A stretch of DNA of 11,197 nt, from the NCBI GenBank assembly GCA_020723935.1, contig DYHY01000015.1, positions 1 to 11,197 on the forward strand. The letters run 5' to 3'. The notes under the pieces were generated by a model that had not been told where the DNA came from, ran no database searches, and saw only the letters and a list, made by a program, of their open reading frames with translations. The position numbers and the translations under genes were made by a program. Shown here one piece after another: positions 1 through 9,883 of this stretch. Source of the DNA: Candidatus Micrarchaeum sp. (GTDB lineage: Archaea > SpSt-1190 > DYHY01). Within the stretch, counting starts at the first letter, position 1. Each line of letters starts with the position of its first letter.

Positions 1-2014
1 CGTCGAGGAGCTCGCCGCAGAGCGCGGGCGCAAGAGGTGAGAGTACTTGCGCGAGGTTGAGGACCGCGGCATCGGCGGCATCCCTGCTCATTCCCCCCCG
101 GCGCAGATAGGTGGAAACGGCTGAAAAGCCCGAAAACAGCGAAAGAAGGGCATCCCGGGGCATGAGGCTTTCCATTGCGGAATGCGCACGGGCGATGCGG
201 ACGGCCGCATCGGCGCCGAGGAAGTCCTCCGCCTGCCCGGATGATGCTCCGCCCACGGGAAGGGCGGCGATCCTTTCAACCAGCTTCCTGATCTCCTGGA
301 TCCTTTCGGAAACCGCGCGCAGGTCCGCCGTCCCGCATTCCGAATCCTTCCTGGGTCCCGCAAGAAGTATCGAGAGCCTGACCGCTTCCCCGCCGTACGC
401 GGAAAGCAGGGCGGAGAGCGGCTCGTGGGAGGAGAGGAAGGGGAGCTTGATGAAGCCCTTGGGTCCCTGTGCCGGCTCCAGCATCGCCGAGGACAGGCGG
501 CACAGGTCCGAGGGCCAGCGTTCCGGCTTTCCGGAGAAGACGAAGAAGGATGACGGCGACGAAGAACCTTCGGGCCCCTCGGAGAAGACGAGTCCGGCCG
601 CCTGCCTTGCGGAAAGGAGCGCCTCCTTGGGAAGGACGCCGCGGCAGCTCTTGAGGACGGAGTTGAAGTTGCTTTCCTTGCCGAAAAGATAGTCGAACGC
701 GACGGGCGGCGGGGATTTCTCCGCAGGCAGGCCGCAGAGGAGGTGGAACGCCGAAAAAAGGAAGGGATCCGAGGGGGGCCGATCGCCGCTAGGGAGCTGC
801 GCCAGCATCCCGGCCGCGGCGGGGACGAGGGAGATGGAATCCGACCAGCTCTTGGAGGAGAAGAGGAGGACGGGGGAATCCGCGCGCACCGCGCAGAGGA
901 GCCTCGCGCCGCAGAACCCGCACTCGCCCCGCGCCGGTTCGAGGAATTCGCATGCGGCGCCGCTCCTCAGGAATTCGTGGCGCATCAGGGGCGCGCCCTC
1001 CCCGACAGGGAGGCCGTGGAACCTCCCGCACACCTCCGTGAACATTCCGTCCCTCGCAGGGAATTTCACCTGGACTTCCTCAAGCTTCCTCTGCGACAGG
1101 CCGCTTTGCGAGAGGATCTGCGGCGAGGAGGAGAGGACGCGCAGGCCGGACAGGTCCCCGGCGTCCGTTCCCGGCGAGCAGACGGAGATTCCCGTCGGGC
1201 TCCCGGGTTTTCCGGGTATGATCGGCACGAACTCCTCGGTCACCGGGTTCTTCGCCGCGCTAGCGAGGAGGTCTTTCCCCGTGAATTCCATCTCGACGCT
1301 CCCCTCGCCCAGCTGCGCTGAGAAATCCGGGAGCCTTTCCCTGAGGAACACGTACGAAACATTCTTGTTTCCCTTGGAACGCCAGCGGGCGTATGCGGCG
1401 GACGGGTCGACCCAGAGGGCGCACGCCGCGAAGGCGTCCTGGGGCTTCCTGATTTCCGCGAGGAGGATGAGATCCGCGACCGCGAAGTTCAGGAGGAGCC
1501 GCGGCTCGATCCGCTCGGAGAAATCGGTCAGGTCCTTCCCGCACGACGGGCAGGCGACGACAGGGACGTCCAGAGTGGAGGAGAGCTTCTCAGCCGAGAG
1601 CCATGCGCGCGCGTACGGGAAGAACCCCGACGAGAAGAGTGGGTCTGTCGAGCGCAGGATTTTCTTCGTCCCGACAAAGAGGTCCCTCAGCGCCGAGAGC
1701 CACCTCCCCTCCAGGTGCGCCGAGAACTCCGCCTCGTCGCGCAGGCCGTCCGGGAGGGCGGCCTCCTCGAGGGAAAACATCGTCCTGCTCTCTATCGTCT
1801 TGCGCGAGAAAGAGGAGAAGGCGCAGGAGACCGACGACCCGCGGGTGACGAGCCCGACGGCGGCCTCGGGCGAGGAGAAGAACCTGTTCATCGCGTCGCA
1901 GAAAACGTGCGGCCGAATCCCGCCCATCGTCGGGAAGCCGCATGTGACTATCGGGGGTGGAAGGAGGATGGTTCGCCTCTGCGCCTTTCCTTTCTTCCCT
2001 TCCTCTGCCGGCAT
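1..2014 (-). CDS. Degenerate leucyl-tRNA synthetase-like protein (partial, 3' end outside window)
   Basis: One stop-free frame gives 671 residues from an ATG at 2014-2012 to the window edge. The order of segments follows archaeal LeuRS as I remember it: an N-terminal strand with FPT (27-29), a CP1 insert with WVDPSAAY (201-208, compare WVNPNATY), VKFPARDGMF (316-325), a Cys pair, FDYLF (440-444), SSFFVF (488-493), the helix LSALLSAYGGEAVRLSILL (533-551, compare the segment after KMSKS), and LSPLAPALCGELL (658-670, compare LMAPFTPHICEELW in the anticodon-binding domain). Catalytic signatures are lost: HIGH is replaced by GGIRPH with a short deletion, KMSKS by FIKLP (521-525), the editing RPET by RKPQD (189-193), and the WLDKKACAR-type loop is absent. 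Cys pairs C155/C158 and C365/C368 remain and could bind zinc. It is probably unable to aminoacylate, so a regulatory, tRNA-binding or structural role is inferred. Codon use stays regular and the frame is intact over 2 kb, which argues against a decaying pseudogene. The start fits a leaderless promoter at 2036-2053. A full archaeal LeuRS is about 930-970 residues, so a few hundred may lie outside. Confidence 0.82.
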   Translation of the reverse strand, partial: MPAEEGKKGKAQRRTILLPPPIVTCGFPTMGGIRPHVFCDAMNRFFSSPEAAVGLVTRGSSVSCAFSSFSRKTIESRTMFSLEEAALPDGLRDEAEFSAHLEGRWLSALRDLFVGTKKILRSTDPLFSSGFFPYARAWLSAEKLSSTLDVPVVACPSCGKDLTDFSERIEPRLLLNFAVADLILLAEIRKPQDAFAACALWVDPSAAYARWRSKGNKNVSYVFLRERLPDFSAQLGEGSVEMEFTGKDLLASAAKNPVTEEFVPIIPGKPGSPTGISVCSPGTDAGDLSGLRVLSSSPQILSQSGLSQRKLEEVQVKFPARDGMFTEVCGRFHGLPVGEGAPLMRHEFLRSGAACEFLEPARGECGFCGARLLCAVRADSPVLLFSSKSWSDSISLVPAAAGMLAQLPSGDRPPSDPFLFSAFHLLCGLPAEKSPPPVAFDYLFGKESNFNSVLKSCRGVLPKEALLSARQAAGLVFSEGPEGSSSPSSFFVFSGKPERWPSDLCRLSSAMLEPAQGPKGFIKLPFLSSHEPLSALLSAYGGEAVRLSILLAGPRKDSECGTADLRAVSERIQEIRKLVERIAALPVGGASSGQAEDFLGADAAVRIARAHSAMESLMPRDALLSLFSGFSAVSTYLRRGGMSRDAADAAVLNLAQVLSPLAPALCGELLD

Positions 2015-2035: not shown

Positions 2036-2053
2036 GGATATATCCTTTTTTCG
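2036..2053 (-). promoter_or_regulatory. TATA/BRE-like promoter of the LeuRS-like gene
   Basis: On the minus strand a GAAAAAAGG purine run is followed by GGATATATCC (2036-2045), itself a 10-bp palindrome. Its centre lies about 26 nt upstream of the ATG at 2014, the spacing expected for an archaeal TATA box serving a leaderless transcript. I see no Shine-Dalgarno sequence before the ATG. Confidence 0.55.
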
Positions 2054-2086: not shown

Positions 2087-2110
2087 TTTATTTATAAAAT
2101 ATTTATAAAT
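2087..2110. promoter_or_regulatory. A/T-only element between two minus-strand genes
   Basis: A stretch of A and T only, holding two TTTATAAA-type cores, stands out in very GC-rich surroundings between the stop of the coiled-coil gene (2146) and the LeuRS-like gene. It could be a second, upstream promoter for the LeuRS-like gene (giving a leader of roughly 50 nt) or part of the 3' end of the coiled-coil transcript. No plus-strand gene is there to use it. Confidence 0.4.
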
Positions 2111-2145: not shown

Positions 2146-4593
2146 TCACATGTTGTAGTACGCCTTGTGGCTCCTGAGCATCGACTTGATCTTACTTATC
2201 TCCGCCTGGTGCTTGTCAAGGTGGTCCTCAATGGAGAGGGTGCGTGCGATGCGCGCGTCTATCTCCTTGAGCTTTTCGCGGGTCTGGCGCGATATGTCCT
2301 CGAAATGCTTCTCGGAGACGAGGCCCTCCTCCTTCTGGTTGGAGAGGAGCATGAGGAGTTCGGAGAGCTCCTTCCTCTGGCTCTTGAGCGCCTCCAGGTT
2401 TGACACCTCGGCCATGAGGTCCTGCGATTTCTTCGCGAGGTCCGATGCGTTGGCATCCGGGCTCTGCTCGGACGGCCTCGGCTGCGCGGGATAGGCCCGG
2501 GGCGAGAAGGACATCTTGGATTCGAAGGCGGATTTTATCGCGTCTATCTCGACCGACTTCCTCTCGAGGAGCGCCTGCTTGGAGGAGAGGTCCGAGAGCC
2601 TCGAGTCGATTGCCGCGAGCTTCTGGGAGACCGCGTCCTCGATCTTTCCGAACGCCTCGACCCGGGCGTCGAGGTCCTTCTCCTTGGAGACGAGGAAGCC
2701 TATCTTCACCTCTATCTCCCCGAGTTTCTCGGTGAGATCCTCGTCCACGCCCTTGAGGCTTTCGCGCGCCTGCTCGGATTCCGAGACGGAGCGTTTCACG
2801 GACTCCATCTCGTCCTTGAGGGAGGCTTGGAGGCCGTCGACTGCGGACGTGAGATCGGACGCCTTCTTGAGGCCGCGCTCGACCTGCTCGGAGATCGCCG
2901 CGACCTTGCGCTGGTATTCGGAGACTGCCGCCTCGCGCTTCCTCGTCGTCTCGTCAATGAGCTGCTCCGCCTGCTCCTCGGTCTTCTGGACCTGGCCCCG
3001 CCTCGCGGAGAGGTCCGTAGCTATCTTGGCCATGCCCTCGGTGAGCGAGACGGATGTCTGGCGGAGCGAGGACGCGCGCGCGTCCAGCGACTCGACGTCC
3101 GAGCGGATCCTCATTATGTCCGAAGTGGAGGACTCGATCCTCTGCTTGGACGTTATGACCTCGTTCTCCAGGGCGAGGACCGCGCTCTTGAGCTTGGACG
3201 CGCGCTCCTCGGCGGAGGAGAGCCTGGATGAGGAGGTGTCCTGCATAGCCTGCAGGTCGGAGAACTTCGCGGAAATGGACGACTCTATCTGCTTGAGGGC
3301 GGAAAGCTTGGTCCCCGCCTCGGAGAGGCGCGAGTCCAGGTCCTCGCTCGAGCGCCTGAACGACTCGAGCTTCGCGTTCGCTCCTGTGGTCAGGTCGTCA
3401 AGCCTCGCCTGCGAGGCCACGAGTTCCGAGACGCGCGAGGAGAGGGTCTGCGCCTGGCTTTCCGCCTGCTGGCGCAGGCTCTTGAGCTCCGAGAGTCTGG
3501 ACTCGACGAAGCCCTGGCTCTTCTGCATCTCGGACTCGAGGGTCTCGTGCGCCTGCTTGACGAACGCGATCTTGGAATCTATCTTTGGGATGAGCTCCTC
3601 GGCCGAGGATTGCACCTCCTTGAAGGAGAGGAGCTTCTGTTCGAAGTTCGCCTTGAGGGAATCGAGGCCCGCAATCTTGGCGTGGACGTCCGGGAGGATG
3701 AACTCAAAGGTCGCCTTGAGCTTCTCGGCTTCCTGGCGCCTGCCCTCGATCGCCGCCCTTATCGCGTTGACCTCGCCGCCGAGGAGGTCGGACGCCTTCC
3801 TCGCGTCCGAAGCCTGCGCCTTTATCGACTCGACGACGGCGGTCACTTCCGCCTTCTTGGAATCCGCTATTTCGCGCGAAGTCCTCACCTGCTGCTCGAG
3901 GGCCTCGGTCACCCTGCGGAACTCCTCGAGCCGGTCCTTGGCGTCGGGCAGGGCGGAAGCCATCCTGCGGGCGGCCTCCTCTATGAACGCTATCCTGTCG
4001 TCGGAGGATTTCTTCAGGCCCTCGAGCTCCGAGAGCCTGGCCGAGATCGAGCTAGCGGTGTCGGACACCTCCTTGTGGAGGGCCCCTACCTCCGCGCGTT
4101 TGTCCGCGTAGCTCGTGCGCGCGGCGTCCACTTCCGCGTGCAGGCGGTCCAGGTACGATATCACCTTCTGAAGGTTCGCGGCAAGGCTTTCCGAGAGGAC
4201 GGAGAGGCGGTTGAAATCCTCGCGGCGCTCGTTGAGGTGGCTCTCGATGCCCGTGAAGCCGCGGTCAATCTCCTGCTGGAGGCCCTGGGCCGCCTGGAGG
4301 CGGCTCCTGAGCTGCTCGGACTTCTGCTCGAGGGCCGCCTTGACCCGCAGGGCCTCCTCTATCTGCTCGGAAGTCTCCTGGCGGGCCTTGGAAAGCACGA
4401 TGAACGCGTCCTTCATCCCGGAAGGATCGCCACCTTGCGGCTGCCCCGCCTGCGCGGGATCGTCCCGGGAGAAACGGCGGACCGGACCGGACTCCCCGGA
4501 GGGAGCGGGCGGCGCCTGGCGGCGGACGGGCGGAGCCTTCTCCCCGGAGTCGTCGTCATCCGGATAGGCCGCCACGGCGATTGGAATCGGCAC
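2146..4593 (-). CDS. Large coiled-coil protein, 815 residues, function unknown
   Basis: The product starts at a GTG (4593-4591) and ends in TGA. Residues 1-60 are Pro/Asp/Gly-rich and probably disordered. Residues about 60-690 are an almost unbroken heptad pattern rich in Glu, Lys, Ser, Ala and Leu. A Pro-rich hinge (696-715) precedes a second helical region (718-815) ending in AYYNM. I find no Cys, no Trp, no Walker motif, no signal peptide and no membrane segment, so it is not an SMC or Rad50 ATPase but a cytoplasmic rod. A recurring [RK]-[LVF]-[SE] motif sits at residues 366, 387, 408, 422, 443 and 457, spaced by 21 or 14 residues, and [RK]-I-[AG]-F recurs at 200, 341 and 630. The GTG start is preferred because a TATA box lies about 26 nt upstream; a later start at Met60 would remove only the disordered leader. 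It may be a structural or scaffold protein, but no family is recognised. It is divergent from the small membrane protein at 4691. Confidence 0.85.
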   Translation of the reverse strand: MPIPIAVAAYPDDDDSGEKAPPVRRQAPPAPSGESGPVRRFSRDDPAQAGQPQGGDPSGMKDAFIVLSKARQETSEQIEEALRVKAALEQKSEQLRSRLQAAQGLQQEIDRGFTGIESHLNERREDFNRLSVLSESLAANLQKVISYLDRLHAEVDAARTSYADKRAEVGALHKEVSDTASSISARLSELEGLKKSSDDRIAFIEEAARRMASALPDAKDRLEEFRRVTEALEQQVRTSREIADSKKAEVTAVVESIKAQASDARKASDLLGGEVNAIRAAIEGRRQEAEKLKATFEFILPDVHAKIAGLDSLKANFEQKLLSFKEVQSSAEELIPKIDSKIAFVKQAHETLESEMQKSQGFVESRLSELKSLRQQAESQAQTLSSRVSELVASQARLDDLTTGANAKLESFRRSSEDLDSRLSEAGTKLSALKQIESSISAKFSDLQAMQDTSSSRLSSAEERASKLKSAVLALENEVITSKQRIESSTSDIMRIRSDVESLDARASSLRQTSVSLTEGMAKIATDLSARRGQVQKTEEQAEQLIDETTRKREAAVSEYQRKVAAISEQVERGLKKASDLTSAVDGLQASLKDEMESVKRSVSESEQARESLKGVDEDLTEKLGEIEVKIGFLVSKEKDLDARVEAFGKIEDAVSQKLAAIDSRLSDLSSKQALLERKSVEIDAIKSAFESKMSFSPRAYPAQPRPSEQSPDANASDLAKKSQDLMAEVSNLEALKSQRKELSELLMLLSNQKEEGLVSEKHFEDISRQTREKLKEIDARIARTLSIEDHLDKHQAEISKIKSMLRSHKAYYNM

Positions 4594-5386: not shown

Positions 5387-6193
5387 CTATGCCTTCCCCA
5401 AAAGCTCCTGCCAGTTGTTGAATCCTAGCTGCGTCCTGAAGAGGAGCGATGGGTCTATTTTGAGCGCCGAAAGCTTCTCATGGGCGGCGGGCGAAACCTG
5501 CTTCTCCGTCGAGGGCATAACCGCCGCGTCCTCTTTGAGGAGCTTGGTCCCCAGAAGGAGGTCGAGCACCGCGAGGTTCCCGAGGAACGTGCACGCGGGC
5601 GCGTCCAGGGTCGTGACGTCGGTGACGCCGATGACCTGGATGCGTGCATAGCCTTCGACGCCGCGGATCTTCAGGGAATTGGCATAGGCGAGGAGCGTGC
5701 TCTCCAGGGCCAGCTCCATCCCCGCAAGCTTCTGGCGGATGCGCCCGGAGAAGGCGTACTGCGCGCCGATCCCTATCGAGAAGAAGTCGGTCCCCTCGAG
5801 GGAGGTCTGGAACCCGTTCGTCACCTGGTATGCGCCGAACTTCTCTATCGTCCTGTCGTATCCGACAATGAGGGCGGGCGTCTGCTCGAGGAGCTTCTCT
5901 GCCTGCCTCGGGTATCCCGCGTTCTTCTGGGCCTCCCTACGCAGCAGATCCGCCGCGCCCTTGGCGAGCTCCGCGAGCGTGAGCTCGTTGAGCTGCTGCG
6001 GCACCGCCGCGATGAGCTTCTTGGAAAGCTCCGGGTTCCCAGTGCATATTACCACACCGTGCCCGAACGGCTTCTGGAAAGCCGCGTATTTCGTCGCGCT
6101 CGCCCGCTTCTCCCAAGACGAGGGGTTGTACTCAAAGCCGTCGCTTGCGGCGATGAGCCCCCCGTCGAACCTGCAAAATATTCCGACGCTCAT
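5387..6193 (-). CDS. Proteasome-fold (Ntn hydrolase superfamily) protein, 268 residues
   Basis: The N-terminus MSVGIFCRFDGGLIAASDGF resembles the opening strands of HslV and proteasome beta subunits (TTxxx...GVVIAGD). If Met1 is removed, as expected before Ser, then Ser1, Asp17, Lys28 and Lys34 fall at or within one position of the Thr1, Asp17, Lys28 and Lys33 positions of HslV. Further fold landmarks are GVVICTGN (46-53), ALIVGYD (107-113) and SIGIGAQYA (139-147), the last matching IGSGGPYA of HslV but with Ile142 where the conserved Ser stands. There is no propeptide, and the C-terminal part (about 180-268) is longer than in typical beta subunits. It could be a Ser-nucleophile peptidase or amidase, or a non-catalytic proteasome-fold subunit; the sequence alone does not decide. 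It is the second gene of the MinD-like operon, with GGAG about 7 nt before the ATG. Confidence 0.75.
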   Translation of the reverse strand: MSVGIFCRFDGGLIAASDGFEYNPSSWEKRASATKYAAFQKPFGHGVVICTGNPELSKKLIAAVPQQLNELTLAELAKGAADLLRREAQKNAGYPRQAEKLLEQTPALIVGYDRTIEKFGAYQVTNGFQTSLEGTDFFSIGIGAQYAFSGRIRQKLAGMELALESTLLAYANSLKIRGVEGYARIQVIGVTDVTTLDAPACTFLGNLAVLDLLLGTKLLKEDAAVMPSTEKQVSPAAHEKLSALKIDPSLLFRTQLGFNNWQELLGKA

Positions 6194-8527: not shown

Positions 8528-8645
8528 AAATACTATCAGAGAGTGGGATAATTCGTTCTCCCGGGCGGCGCGGGGCCCGCCCCGCAAGGATGGGGCCCTC
8601 TTGCCGGATTTTGCGTCCTCTACCTTACTGGCAGGCTCTGCAAAG

Positions 8646-8661
8646 CCCTCTCTTCGGAGGG
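8646..8661 (-). terminator. Hairpin after pilin-like gene copy A
   Basis: A CCCTC/GAGGG stem with a 6-nt loop lies 10 nt after the stop codon at 8671. Next to it GGCTCTGCAAAGCC is an imperfect palindrome, with the base that differs from copy B spoiling the symmetry. A terminator or mRNA 3' end structure is inferred from position. Confidence 0.35.
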
Positions 8662-8670
8662 TCCCGTCTA

Positions 8671-9153
8671 TTACTGGCAAGTTCCTACGAGCGGCTTCGC
8701 TCCGGTGAACTGGTAGGTGTTCACGGTGTTCGAGGTGTCGTAGTAGGTTATCTTCACCGTCGGCGAATAGGTCGAAGATCCCGCGGTCTGGCCGTTGCAA
8801 GGGTTGGTCGGTCCGTTCGTTATTGTGACGGTCGCAGTCTGCCCGGGCGAGAGCGTGAAAGACGAGGAGCCGTTGTAGGCAAGGGCGGTGTTGAAGGTGA
8901 CATTCGTCACCGTGACGCCGAAGTTCTGGTTGTTCCGGAGGACGATGCTCGACGTCTGGGCGACGCTGAGGTAGGGGCGCTCGACTCCGATGTCCCCGGA
9001 CTGCCAGTACGCAAGGGAGTCCTTCGTCGAGACCCCTTTCGTCAGGGTCGGGAATCCTCCGAGGACTCCTACGACCGCGAGGGCGATGATCACGACTACC
9101 GCCAGAATCACAAGGTATTCCGTCGACGATTGGGCTCGTTTCTGCGCTGCCAT
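8671..9153 (-). CDS. Class III signal peptide pilin-like protein, copy A, 160 residues
   Basis: The leader MAAQKRA is followed by QSSTEY, an exact match to Q-x-S-x-E-Y, and a hydrophobic helix (about 14-32). Cleavage is expected between Ala7 and Gln8. The mature part is beta-rich with IVLRNNQNFGV, sequons NVT and NGS that could be N-glycosylated, FTLSPGQ, one Cys in NPCNGQ, and the C-terminus QFTGAKPLVGTCQ. The protein is identical to the copy at 9401-9883. There is no Trp apart from the one in YWQSGD just after the helix, a position kept in the whole family. A TATA box sits about 28 nt before the ATG. Being present twice suggests a major subunit or gene-dosage effect, which is inference. The expected prepilin peptidase and assembly genes are not in the window. 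Confidence 0.92.
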   Translation of the reverse strand: MAAQKRAQSSTEYLVILAVVVIIALAVVGVLGGFPTLTKGVSTKDSLAYWQSGDIGVERPYLSVAQTSSIVLRNNQNFGVTVTNVTFNTALAYNGSSSFTLSPGQTATVTITNGPTNPCNGQTAGSSTYSPTVKITYYDTSNTVNTYQFTGAKPLVGTCQ

Positions 9154-9290: not shown

Positions 9291-9363
9291 CCGGAATCAG
9301 CTTACCGGCGGGCGCCTACAAGGGGCCGAGACCCGCGTCGAGGTCCGGTCGGGTTTACTGGCA

Positions 9364-9391
9364 GGCTCTGCAGAGCCCTCTCTTCGGAGGG
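9364..9391 (-). terminator. Paired hairpins after pilin-like gene copy B
   Basis: The CCCTC/GAGGG hairpin (9376-9391) is followed on the minus strand by GGCTCTGCAGAGCC (9364-9377), a perfect 14-bp palindrome in this copy. The two overlap by two bases, so they may be alternatives. They start 10 nt after the stop at 9401, suggesting a 3' end or terminator structure. Confidence 0.35.
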
Positions 9392-9400
9392 TCCCGTCTA

Positions 9401-9883
9401 TTACTGGCAAGTTCCTACGAGCGGCTTCGCTCCGGTGAACTGGTAGGTGTTCACGGTGTTCGAGGTGTCGTAGTAGGTTATCTTCACCGTCGGCGAATAG
9501 GTCGAAGATCCCGCGGTCTGGCCGTTGCAAGGGTTGGTCGGTCCGTTCGTTATTGTGACGGTCGCAGTCTGCCCGGGCGAGAGCGTGAAAGACGAGGAGC
9601 CGTTGTAGGCAAGGGCGGTGTTGAAGGTGACATTCGTCACCGTGACGCCGAAGTTCTGGTTGTTCCGGAGGACGATGCTCGACGTCTGGGCGACGCTGAG
9701 GTAGGGGCGCTCGACTCCGATGTCCCCGGACTGCCAGTACGCAAGGGAGTCCTTCGTCGAGACCCCTTTCGTCAGGGTCGGGAATCCTCCGAGGACTCCT
9801 ACGACCGCGAGGGCGATGATCACGACTACCGCCAGAATCACAAGGTATTCCGTCGACGATTGGGCTCGTTTCTGCGCTGCCAT
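9401..9883 (-). CDS. Class III signal peptide pilin-like protein, copy B, 160 residues
   Basis: The protein is residue-for-residue identical to that of 8671-9153: leader MAAQKRA, QSSTEY motif, hydrophobic helix, RNNQNF strand, internal Cys and C-terminal PLVGTCQ. Even silent positions are unchanged, so the duplication is recent or the copies are kept alike by gene conversion. Only the promoter differs: its TATA core is about 37 nt before the ATG rather than 28, giving a short leader of perhaps 10 nt, and it is flanked by TACAACC half-sites absent from copy A. The likely effect is different timing or level of the same subunit, which is inference. Confidence 0.92.
   Translation of the reverse strand: MAAQKRAQSSTEYLVILAVVVIIALAVVGVLGGFPTLTKGVSTKDSLAYWQSGDIGVERPYLSVAQTSSIVLRNNQNFGVTVTNVTFNTALAYNGSSSFTLSPGQTATVTITNGPTNPCNGQTAGSSTYSPTVKITYYDTSNTVNTYQFTGAKPLVGTCQ

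Follow-up and report, generated by a model that had tools for sequence, protein, structure and literature searches.

A putative LeuRS-derived pseudo-synthetase with a retained CP1 editing-like domain and an unrecognizable catalytic domain, encoded at the end of an archaeal contig

The window analyzed here, 11,197 bases in length, is the left part of a contig of 27,700 bases (C16) that belongs to an archaeal genome of 1.14 Mb (47 contigs, 91% complete); the phylum of this host comprises ten genomes in the examined set. At the left edge of the window, on the minus strand, lies a gene for a putative pseudo-synthetase derived from leucyl-tRNA synthetase (LeuRS; 2..2014), which was assigned from its open frame, its coding statistics and its match to the archaeal LeuRS model of NCBIfam (E 3e-17). 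The frame begins with an ATG at position 2014, with an in-frame GTG at 2149 as a possible alternative start, and continues over at least 671 codons until it runs off the left contig edge. The stop codon and the C-terminus are thus located beyond the assembly, and the downstream genes likewise fall outside the assembled contig. A matching LeuRS C-terminus, the part that would hold the domain for the long arm of tRNA(Leu), was not found on any other contig of the genome. A previous sequence-only reading of this DNA had noted an open frame of 671 codons, which is borne out by the minus-strand frame at 2-2014 and its coding statistics. The same reading called the gene intact; as the frame leaves contig C16 with its C-terminus and stop unseen, this description is unsupported.

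Upstream of the gene, a promoter-like GAAAAAAGGATATAT was recognized by inspection at 2038..2052 on the minus strand, 23 nt before the ATG. TATA-like boxes are found, again by inspection, 22-25 nt before the ATG of the coiled-coil, MinD-like and pilin genes nearby. The TATA-like GAAAAAAGGATATAT thus sits at the spacing seen in the neighbouring genes, which favours the ATG at 2014 as the start as well as expression of the gene from its own putative promoter. Between this gene and the coiled-coil gene, an AT-rich tract at 2091..2109 contains two exact copies of TTTATAAA. When one mismatch was allowed, three matches to TTTATAAA were obtained compared to 0.3 expected, the two exact ones both being those in this tract. 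The tract lies within a window of 64% GC, ends 77 nt before the ATG and is possibly an operator or a terminator.

The gene directly upstream (2146-4593, minus strand) encodes a coiled-coil protein of 815 aa, whose matches to SMC/Rad50-type models are far below the cut-offs. Further upstream on the same strand (5387-6193), a protein of 268 aa starting with MSVGIFCRFDGGLIAASDGFEY resembles by eye a proteasome-type Ntn hydrolase without the N-terminal threonine. It matched nothing in Pfam, NCBIfam or PHROG and has no relative in the nine other genomes of the phylum. Two pilin-like proteins of 160 aa each, encoded at 8671-9153 and 9401-9883, are letter-identical, and two copies of a 300-nt stretch (8625-8924 and 9355-9654; 730 nt apart) are identical at every base. 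These copies are either a recent duplication or an assembly artefact. Just to the right of the window, 100 N inside another pilin-like gene mark a scaffold gap (11198-11297).

The frame at 2..2014 is a real coding frame. The GC content at its three codon positions (0.63/0.52/0.83) resembles that of the genome's other genes, and its synonymous codon score of 0.44 compares to 0.53 for the canonical LeuRS of the same genome, 0.25-0.75 for the neighbouring genes and 0.28 for the best shadow frame; the codon preference becomes somewhat weaker toward the 3' end. Random sequence of the same composition would contain about 15 stops in 671 codons, and the probability of finding none is about 3e-7.

The encoded protein matches only LeuRS models in NCBIfam, and it stays far below the curated thresholds for archaeal LeuRS, with 61.8 bits for NF008957 (cut-off 677) and 58.4 bits for TIGR00395 (cut-off 648.5). 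A Pfam search with the 670-residue protein yielded no match, and in a sequence search of the PDB P. horikoshii LeuRS was the sole significant match. A canonical LeuRS gene, the presence of which the sequence-only reading had proposed to check, is present on another contig of the same genome (C38:40205-42964). Its product is full (965 aa, 960 bits) and carries the HMGH, KMSKS, TLRPET, AHAPYD and CAR motifs. Since a complete LeuRS is encoded elsewhere in the genome, the protein of the window is a paralog.

The homology of this paralog to LeuRS is modular and not full-length, as judged from piecewise scoring against an HMM profile of 57 canonical LeuRS sequences with 300 shuffles per piece. The best-conserved part is a LeuRS-type CP1 editing-like domain (residues 167-315, 1070..1516, minus strand), which is supported by HMM, NCBIfam, AF2 and structure matching and scores 55.7 bits, a value reached by 0 of 300 shuffles. 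The segment after CP1 (residues 316-392, 839..1069, minus strand) reaches 18.0 bits (0/300 shuffles), and residues 156-506 taken alone match LeuRS in NCBIfam with an E-value of 1.4e-9. An anticodon-binding helical bundle (residues 532-671, 2..421, minus strand), supported by HMM, NCBIfam and pLDDT and extending past the contig end, scores 42.9 bits, again reached by none of 300 shuffles. On its own it matches archaeal LeuRS with E 2e-8, ranked above bacterial LeuRS in NCBIfam. By contrast, the place of the first Rossmann catalytic half (residues 1-148, 1571..2014, minus strand) is unrecognizable by HMM and NCBIfam and lacks HIGH: for residues 1-166 the LeuRS HMM signal is not above that of shuffles, and there is no NCBIfam match to this part alone. 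The place of the second half (residues 393-531, 422..838, minus strand; no KMSKS, pLDDT 27-78) is shortened, scores marginally against the LeuRS HMM (0.7 bits) and is without a LeuRS match in NCBIfam when searched alone. Both regions are shortened rather than deleted (166 and 139 residues, respectively). On these profile comparisons, the catalytic Rossmann domain appears to be eroded beyond recognition or replaced. A frameshift as the cause of the missing catalytic domain was rejected, because the missing LeuRS parts, when sought in the other reading frames, left no LeuRS signal there.

These results also bear on individual residues. A motif scan of all 671 residues found no HIGH, KMSKS-like, RPET/RPDT or WLxxxxCAR-type pattern. 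The losses listed by the sequence-only reading (HIGH, KMSKS, RPET and the WLDKKACAR-type loop) are therefore confirmed. Its statement that the protein aligns with LeuRS along its length does not hold, as the signal exceeds that of shuffles only for about residues 149-392 and 532-671 and not for 1-166 and 393-531. The replacements it gave for HIGH (GGIRPH) and KMSKS (FIKLP) are unsupported as well, because both lie in parts without significant alignment, where the alignment is equalled by shuffled sequence. Its replacement of RPET is acceptable in the form KPQD (residues 190-193, 1436..1447, minus strand), which lies inside the significantly aligned CP1. In this gapless alignment TLRPET reads IRKPQD in the paralog, so that the threonines are gone, and the TG of the later editing motif is kept. 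Asp287 (1154..1156, minus strand) occupies the position of the universal editing Asp, an invariant column in an alignment of 58 sequences. In LeuRS editing sites, hydrolysis should be lost together with the threonines, and the Asp could still hold an amino group.

The motif scan further yielded a candidate zinc site. Its first half, CPSC at residues 155-158 (1541..1552, minus strand), aligns with the CPxC of canonical LeuRS. The second half is CGFC at residues 365-368 in the segment after CP1, and zinc could be bound by the two pairs together. In the canonical LeuRS of the genome the first cysteine pair is missing, and the sequence there is YCLND. Conserved basic columns are kept at 11 of 26 positions overall, with all four kept in the helical bundle and none of four in the segment after CP1; these counts are alignment-dependent and share the weakness of column-retention counts. 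The retention of near-invariant LeuRS columns (37/109) was dropped as evidence for the fold, because shuffled sequences made to fit the same alignment retain similar numbers (mean 30, maximum 39).

An AF2 model of the paralog, for which canonical LeuRS sequences supplied the alignment, has a mean pLDDT of 76 and a pTM of 0.66. Among PDB structures it matches P. horikoshii LeuRS best, with a Foldseek E-value of 1.5e-27 and, over 635 residues, a Z of 23.2 and an rmsd of 3.8, and the CP1 model agrees with LeuRS editing domains at Z ~22 and an rmsd of 1.8. Profile search and structure prediction, the check suggested by the sequence-only reading, thus both lead to LeuRS, as the only NCBIfam match and the best structure, respectively. 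As the other alignment rows are canonical LeuRS, the overall predicted fold is partly imposed. A single-sequence AF2 control was uninformative (pLDDT 37). The pLDDT is about 88-96 in CP1 and the following segment, mostly 82-95 in the helical bundle and 27-83 in the catalytic halves. A preserved fold, as had been proposed from the sequence, is therefore backed for CP1, the following segment and the bundle and not for the catalytic domain.

Relatives of the paralog were searched for in several sets. Among 394 archaeal genomes, no orthologue was found with a match above 50 bits and the results were in line with canonical LeuRS only; those of the retained loci that were checked were recognized as canonical LeuRS by their motifs or their scores. 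A search of the genome contigs with the paralog protein gave no orthologue, and neither did one with the alignment, which returned 80 loci that all scored as canonical LeuRS. Viral contigs contained no relative. A CP1 profile was run over 297 genomes, in which second matches may be IleRS or ValRS. In one genome of the same class (G003), the archaeal LeuRS CP1 profile finds nothing better than an E-value of 5e-9, and the LeuRS of this genome may be of a different type. In a phylogenetic tree the branch of the paralog is saturated and at the limit, so that the tree is unable to tell an origin within its own lineage from one elsewhere; a sister position to the canonical LeuRS of the same genome was not rejected (p-AU 0.39). 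The nearest genome (G001; same family, 84% complete) shares the ATPase-TadB-TadC-pilin order, and its contig ends after the pilins. Since this is before the corresponding place and the genome is incomplete, absence of the paralog from it is not established.

Several explanations for such a gene have to be weighed. A chimera at the contig end or a foreign contig might be suspected, as the gene is situated at the very end of a contig in a fragmented and incomplete assembly. Such an artefact is extremely improbable: GC content (0.64) and codon use match the genome, the neighbouring ATPase, TadB, TadC and pilin genes have relatives in the same order in G001, and a chimera would not create the LeuRS signal, because this is spread over the whole frame. 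A duplicate of LeuRS that has lost its function and whose frame is open so far by chance would explain the unrecognizable catalytic halves, the fast divergence with a tree branch at the limit, the lack of an orthologue in the searches and the codon preference weakening toward the 3' end. Decay of this kind is nevertheless unlikely in view of 671 codons without stop or frameshift at ~20-25% identity (P ~3e-7), a GC3 of 0.83, conservation that is selective for domains and a promoter-like box at normal spacing.

If the gene is functional, its product might still be an enzyme whose catalytic domain was rebuilt for a much changed reaction, either ATP-using or of the ligase type, given that the shortened halves still fill the space and that residues 393-531 retain their marginal score. 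The missing class I signature motif, the lack of a family match to either half and the low model confidence in both make this very improbable. Hardly more probable is a trans-editing factor whose CP1 deacylates mischarged tRNA. CP1 is indeed the best-kept domain and includes the universal Asp, but this Asp is the only catalytic editing residue that remains after the threonine-rich RPET motif changed to KPQD, and the genome's own LeuRS has intact TLRPET and AHAPYD, so that no editing function needs replacement. A protein scaffold or amino-acid sensor centred on CP1, which does not bind RNA and uses the bundle for protein contacts, is less easily dismissed and still rather unlikely. It would agree with the conservation of CP1 and its Asp and with the poor overall retention of basic columns (11/26, alignment-dependent); the score of the bundle (42.9 bits) and its four retained conserved basic columns argue against it.

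With moderate confidence, we therefore read the gene as that of a non-catalytic, LeuRS-derived pseudo-synthetase whose probable ligands are tRNA(Leu) or a comparable RNA, an amino acid, or both. When CP1 and the anticodon-binding bundle are present and the catalytic site is missing, binding is the simplest role for the protein. That the paralog is non-catalytic we infer with good confidence from its sequence, and it would be unable to activate leucine or to charge tRNA. The CP1 site, devoid of the catalytic threonines and equipped with the universal Asp, would probably bind and not hydrolyse its ligand. RNA binding is suggested by the modelled bundle, and sensing of tRNA or an amino acid appears plausible. 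As a guess, the helical bundle may grip tRNA(Leu) or a tRNA-like RNA and CP1 may hold the 3' end of this RNA or an amino acid, in which case the paralog, made from its own putative promoter, might act as a regulator, sensor or RNA chaperone. More tentatively, this may be an undescribed LeuRS-derived protein of a small archaeal lineage, in which the catalytic domain was dismantled or rebuilt while CP1 and the bundle were kept as a dedicated tRNA/amino-acid sensor or RNA chaperone.

Compared to canonical archaeal LeuRS (TIGR00395; P. horikoshii 1wkb/1wz2), the paralog shares the order of CP1, following segment and bundle, the CPxC pair before CP1 and the overall predicted fold, whereas it is shorter, far under the cut-offs and devoid of the motifs, and its catalytic halves are unrecognizable. 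A second LeuRS is also encoded in Sulfolobaceae genomes. According to the account in PMC9437257, this LeuRS-I (Weitzel et al. 2020) has lost aminoacylation and has a disrupted CP1, but it still binds tRNA(Leu) and forms leucyl-adenylate. LeuRS-I is also marked by a divergent acidic C-terminal domain, a part that in the paralog lies beyond the assembled contig. The paralog described here is the reverse, with CP1 best kept and the catalytic site gone, which agrees with the earlier suggestion that it is the more divergent of the two. The halobacterial duplicate LeuRS2 (Fang et al. 2014), as summarized in the same source (PMC9437257), preserves tRNA affinity and charges weakly, in contrast to a paralog without catalytic motifs. 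LeuRS functions that do not depend on catalysis have precedents. The human LARS splice variant LSV3, likewise incapable of charging owing to a lesion in the catalytic domain, shows no leucylation and still senses leucine for mTOR (PMC8941210); it arises by splicing from the LARS gene itself and lacks 71 residues, whereas the paralog is a separate, divergent gene. Other precedents come from further roles and partners of LeuRS: yeast mitochondrial LeuRS acts in intron splicing, and archaeal LeuRS forms complexes with LysRS, ProRS and EF-1A (PMC7373986). HisZ and other synthetase-like regulators are synthetase paralogs that lost catalysis and are used in regulation (PMC9437257). HisZ derives from the class II HisRS and pairs with HisG, unlike the paralog, which is without a known partner.

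Overall, the known archaeal LeuRS paralogs LeuRS-I and LeuRS2 retain part of the catalytic function (PMC9437257), and the paralog of the window probably does not. If it is expressed and functional, it would show the editing and tRNA-binding modules of LeuRS naturally separated from the catalytic core. It would then be a test case for the use of synthetase remnants as sensors or RNA-binding regulators in archaea, as eukaryotes use LARS.
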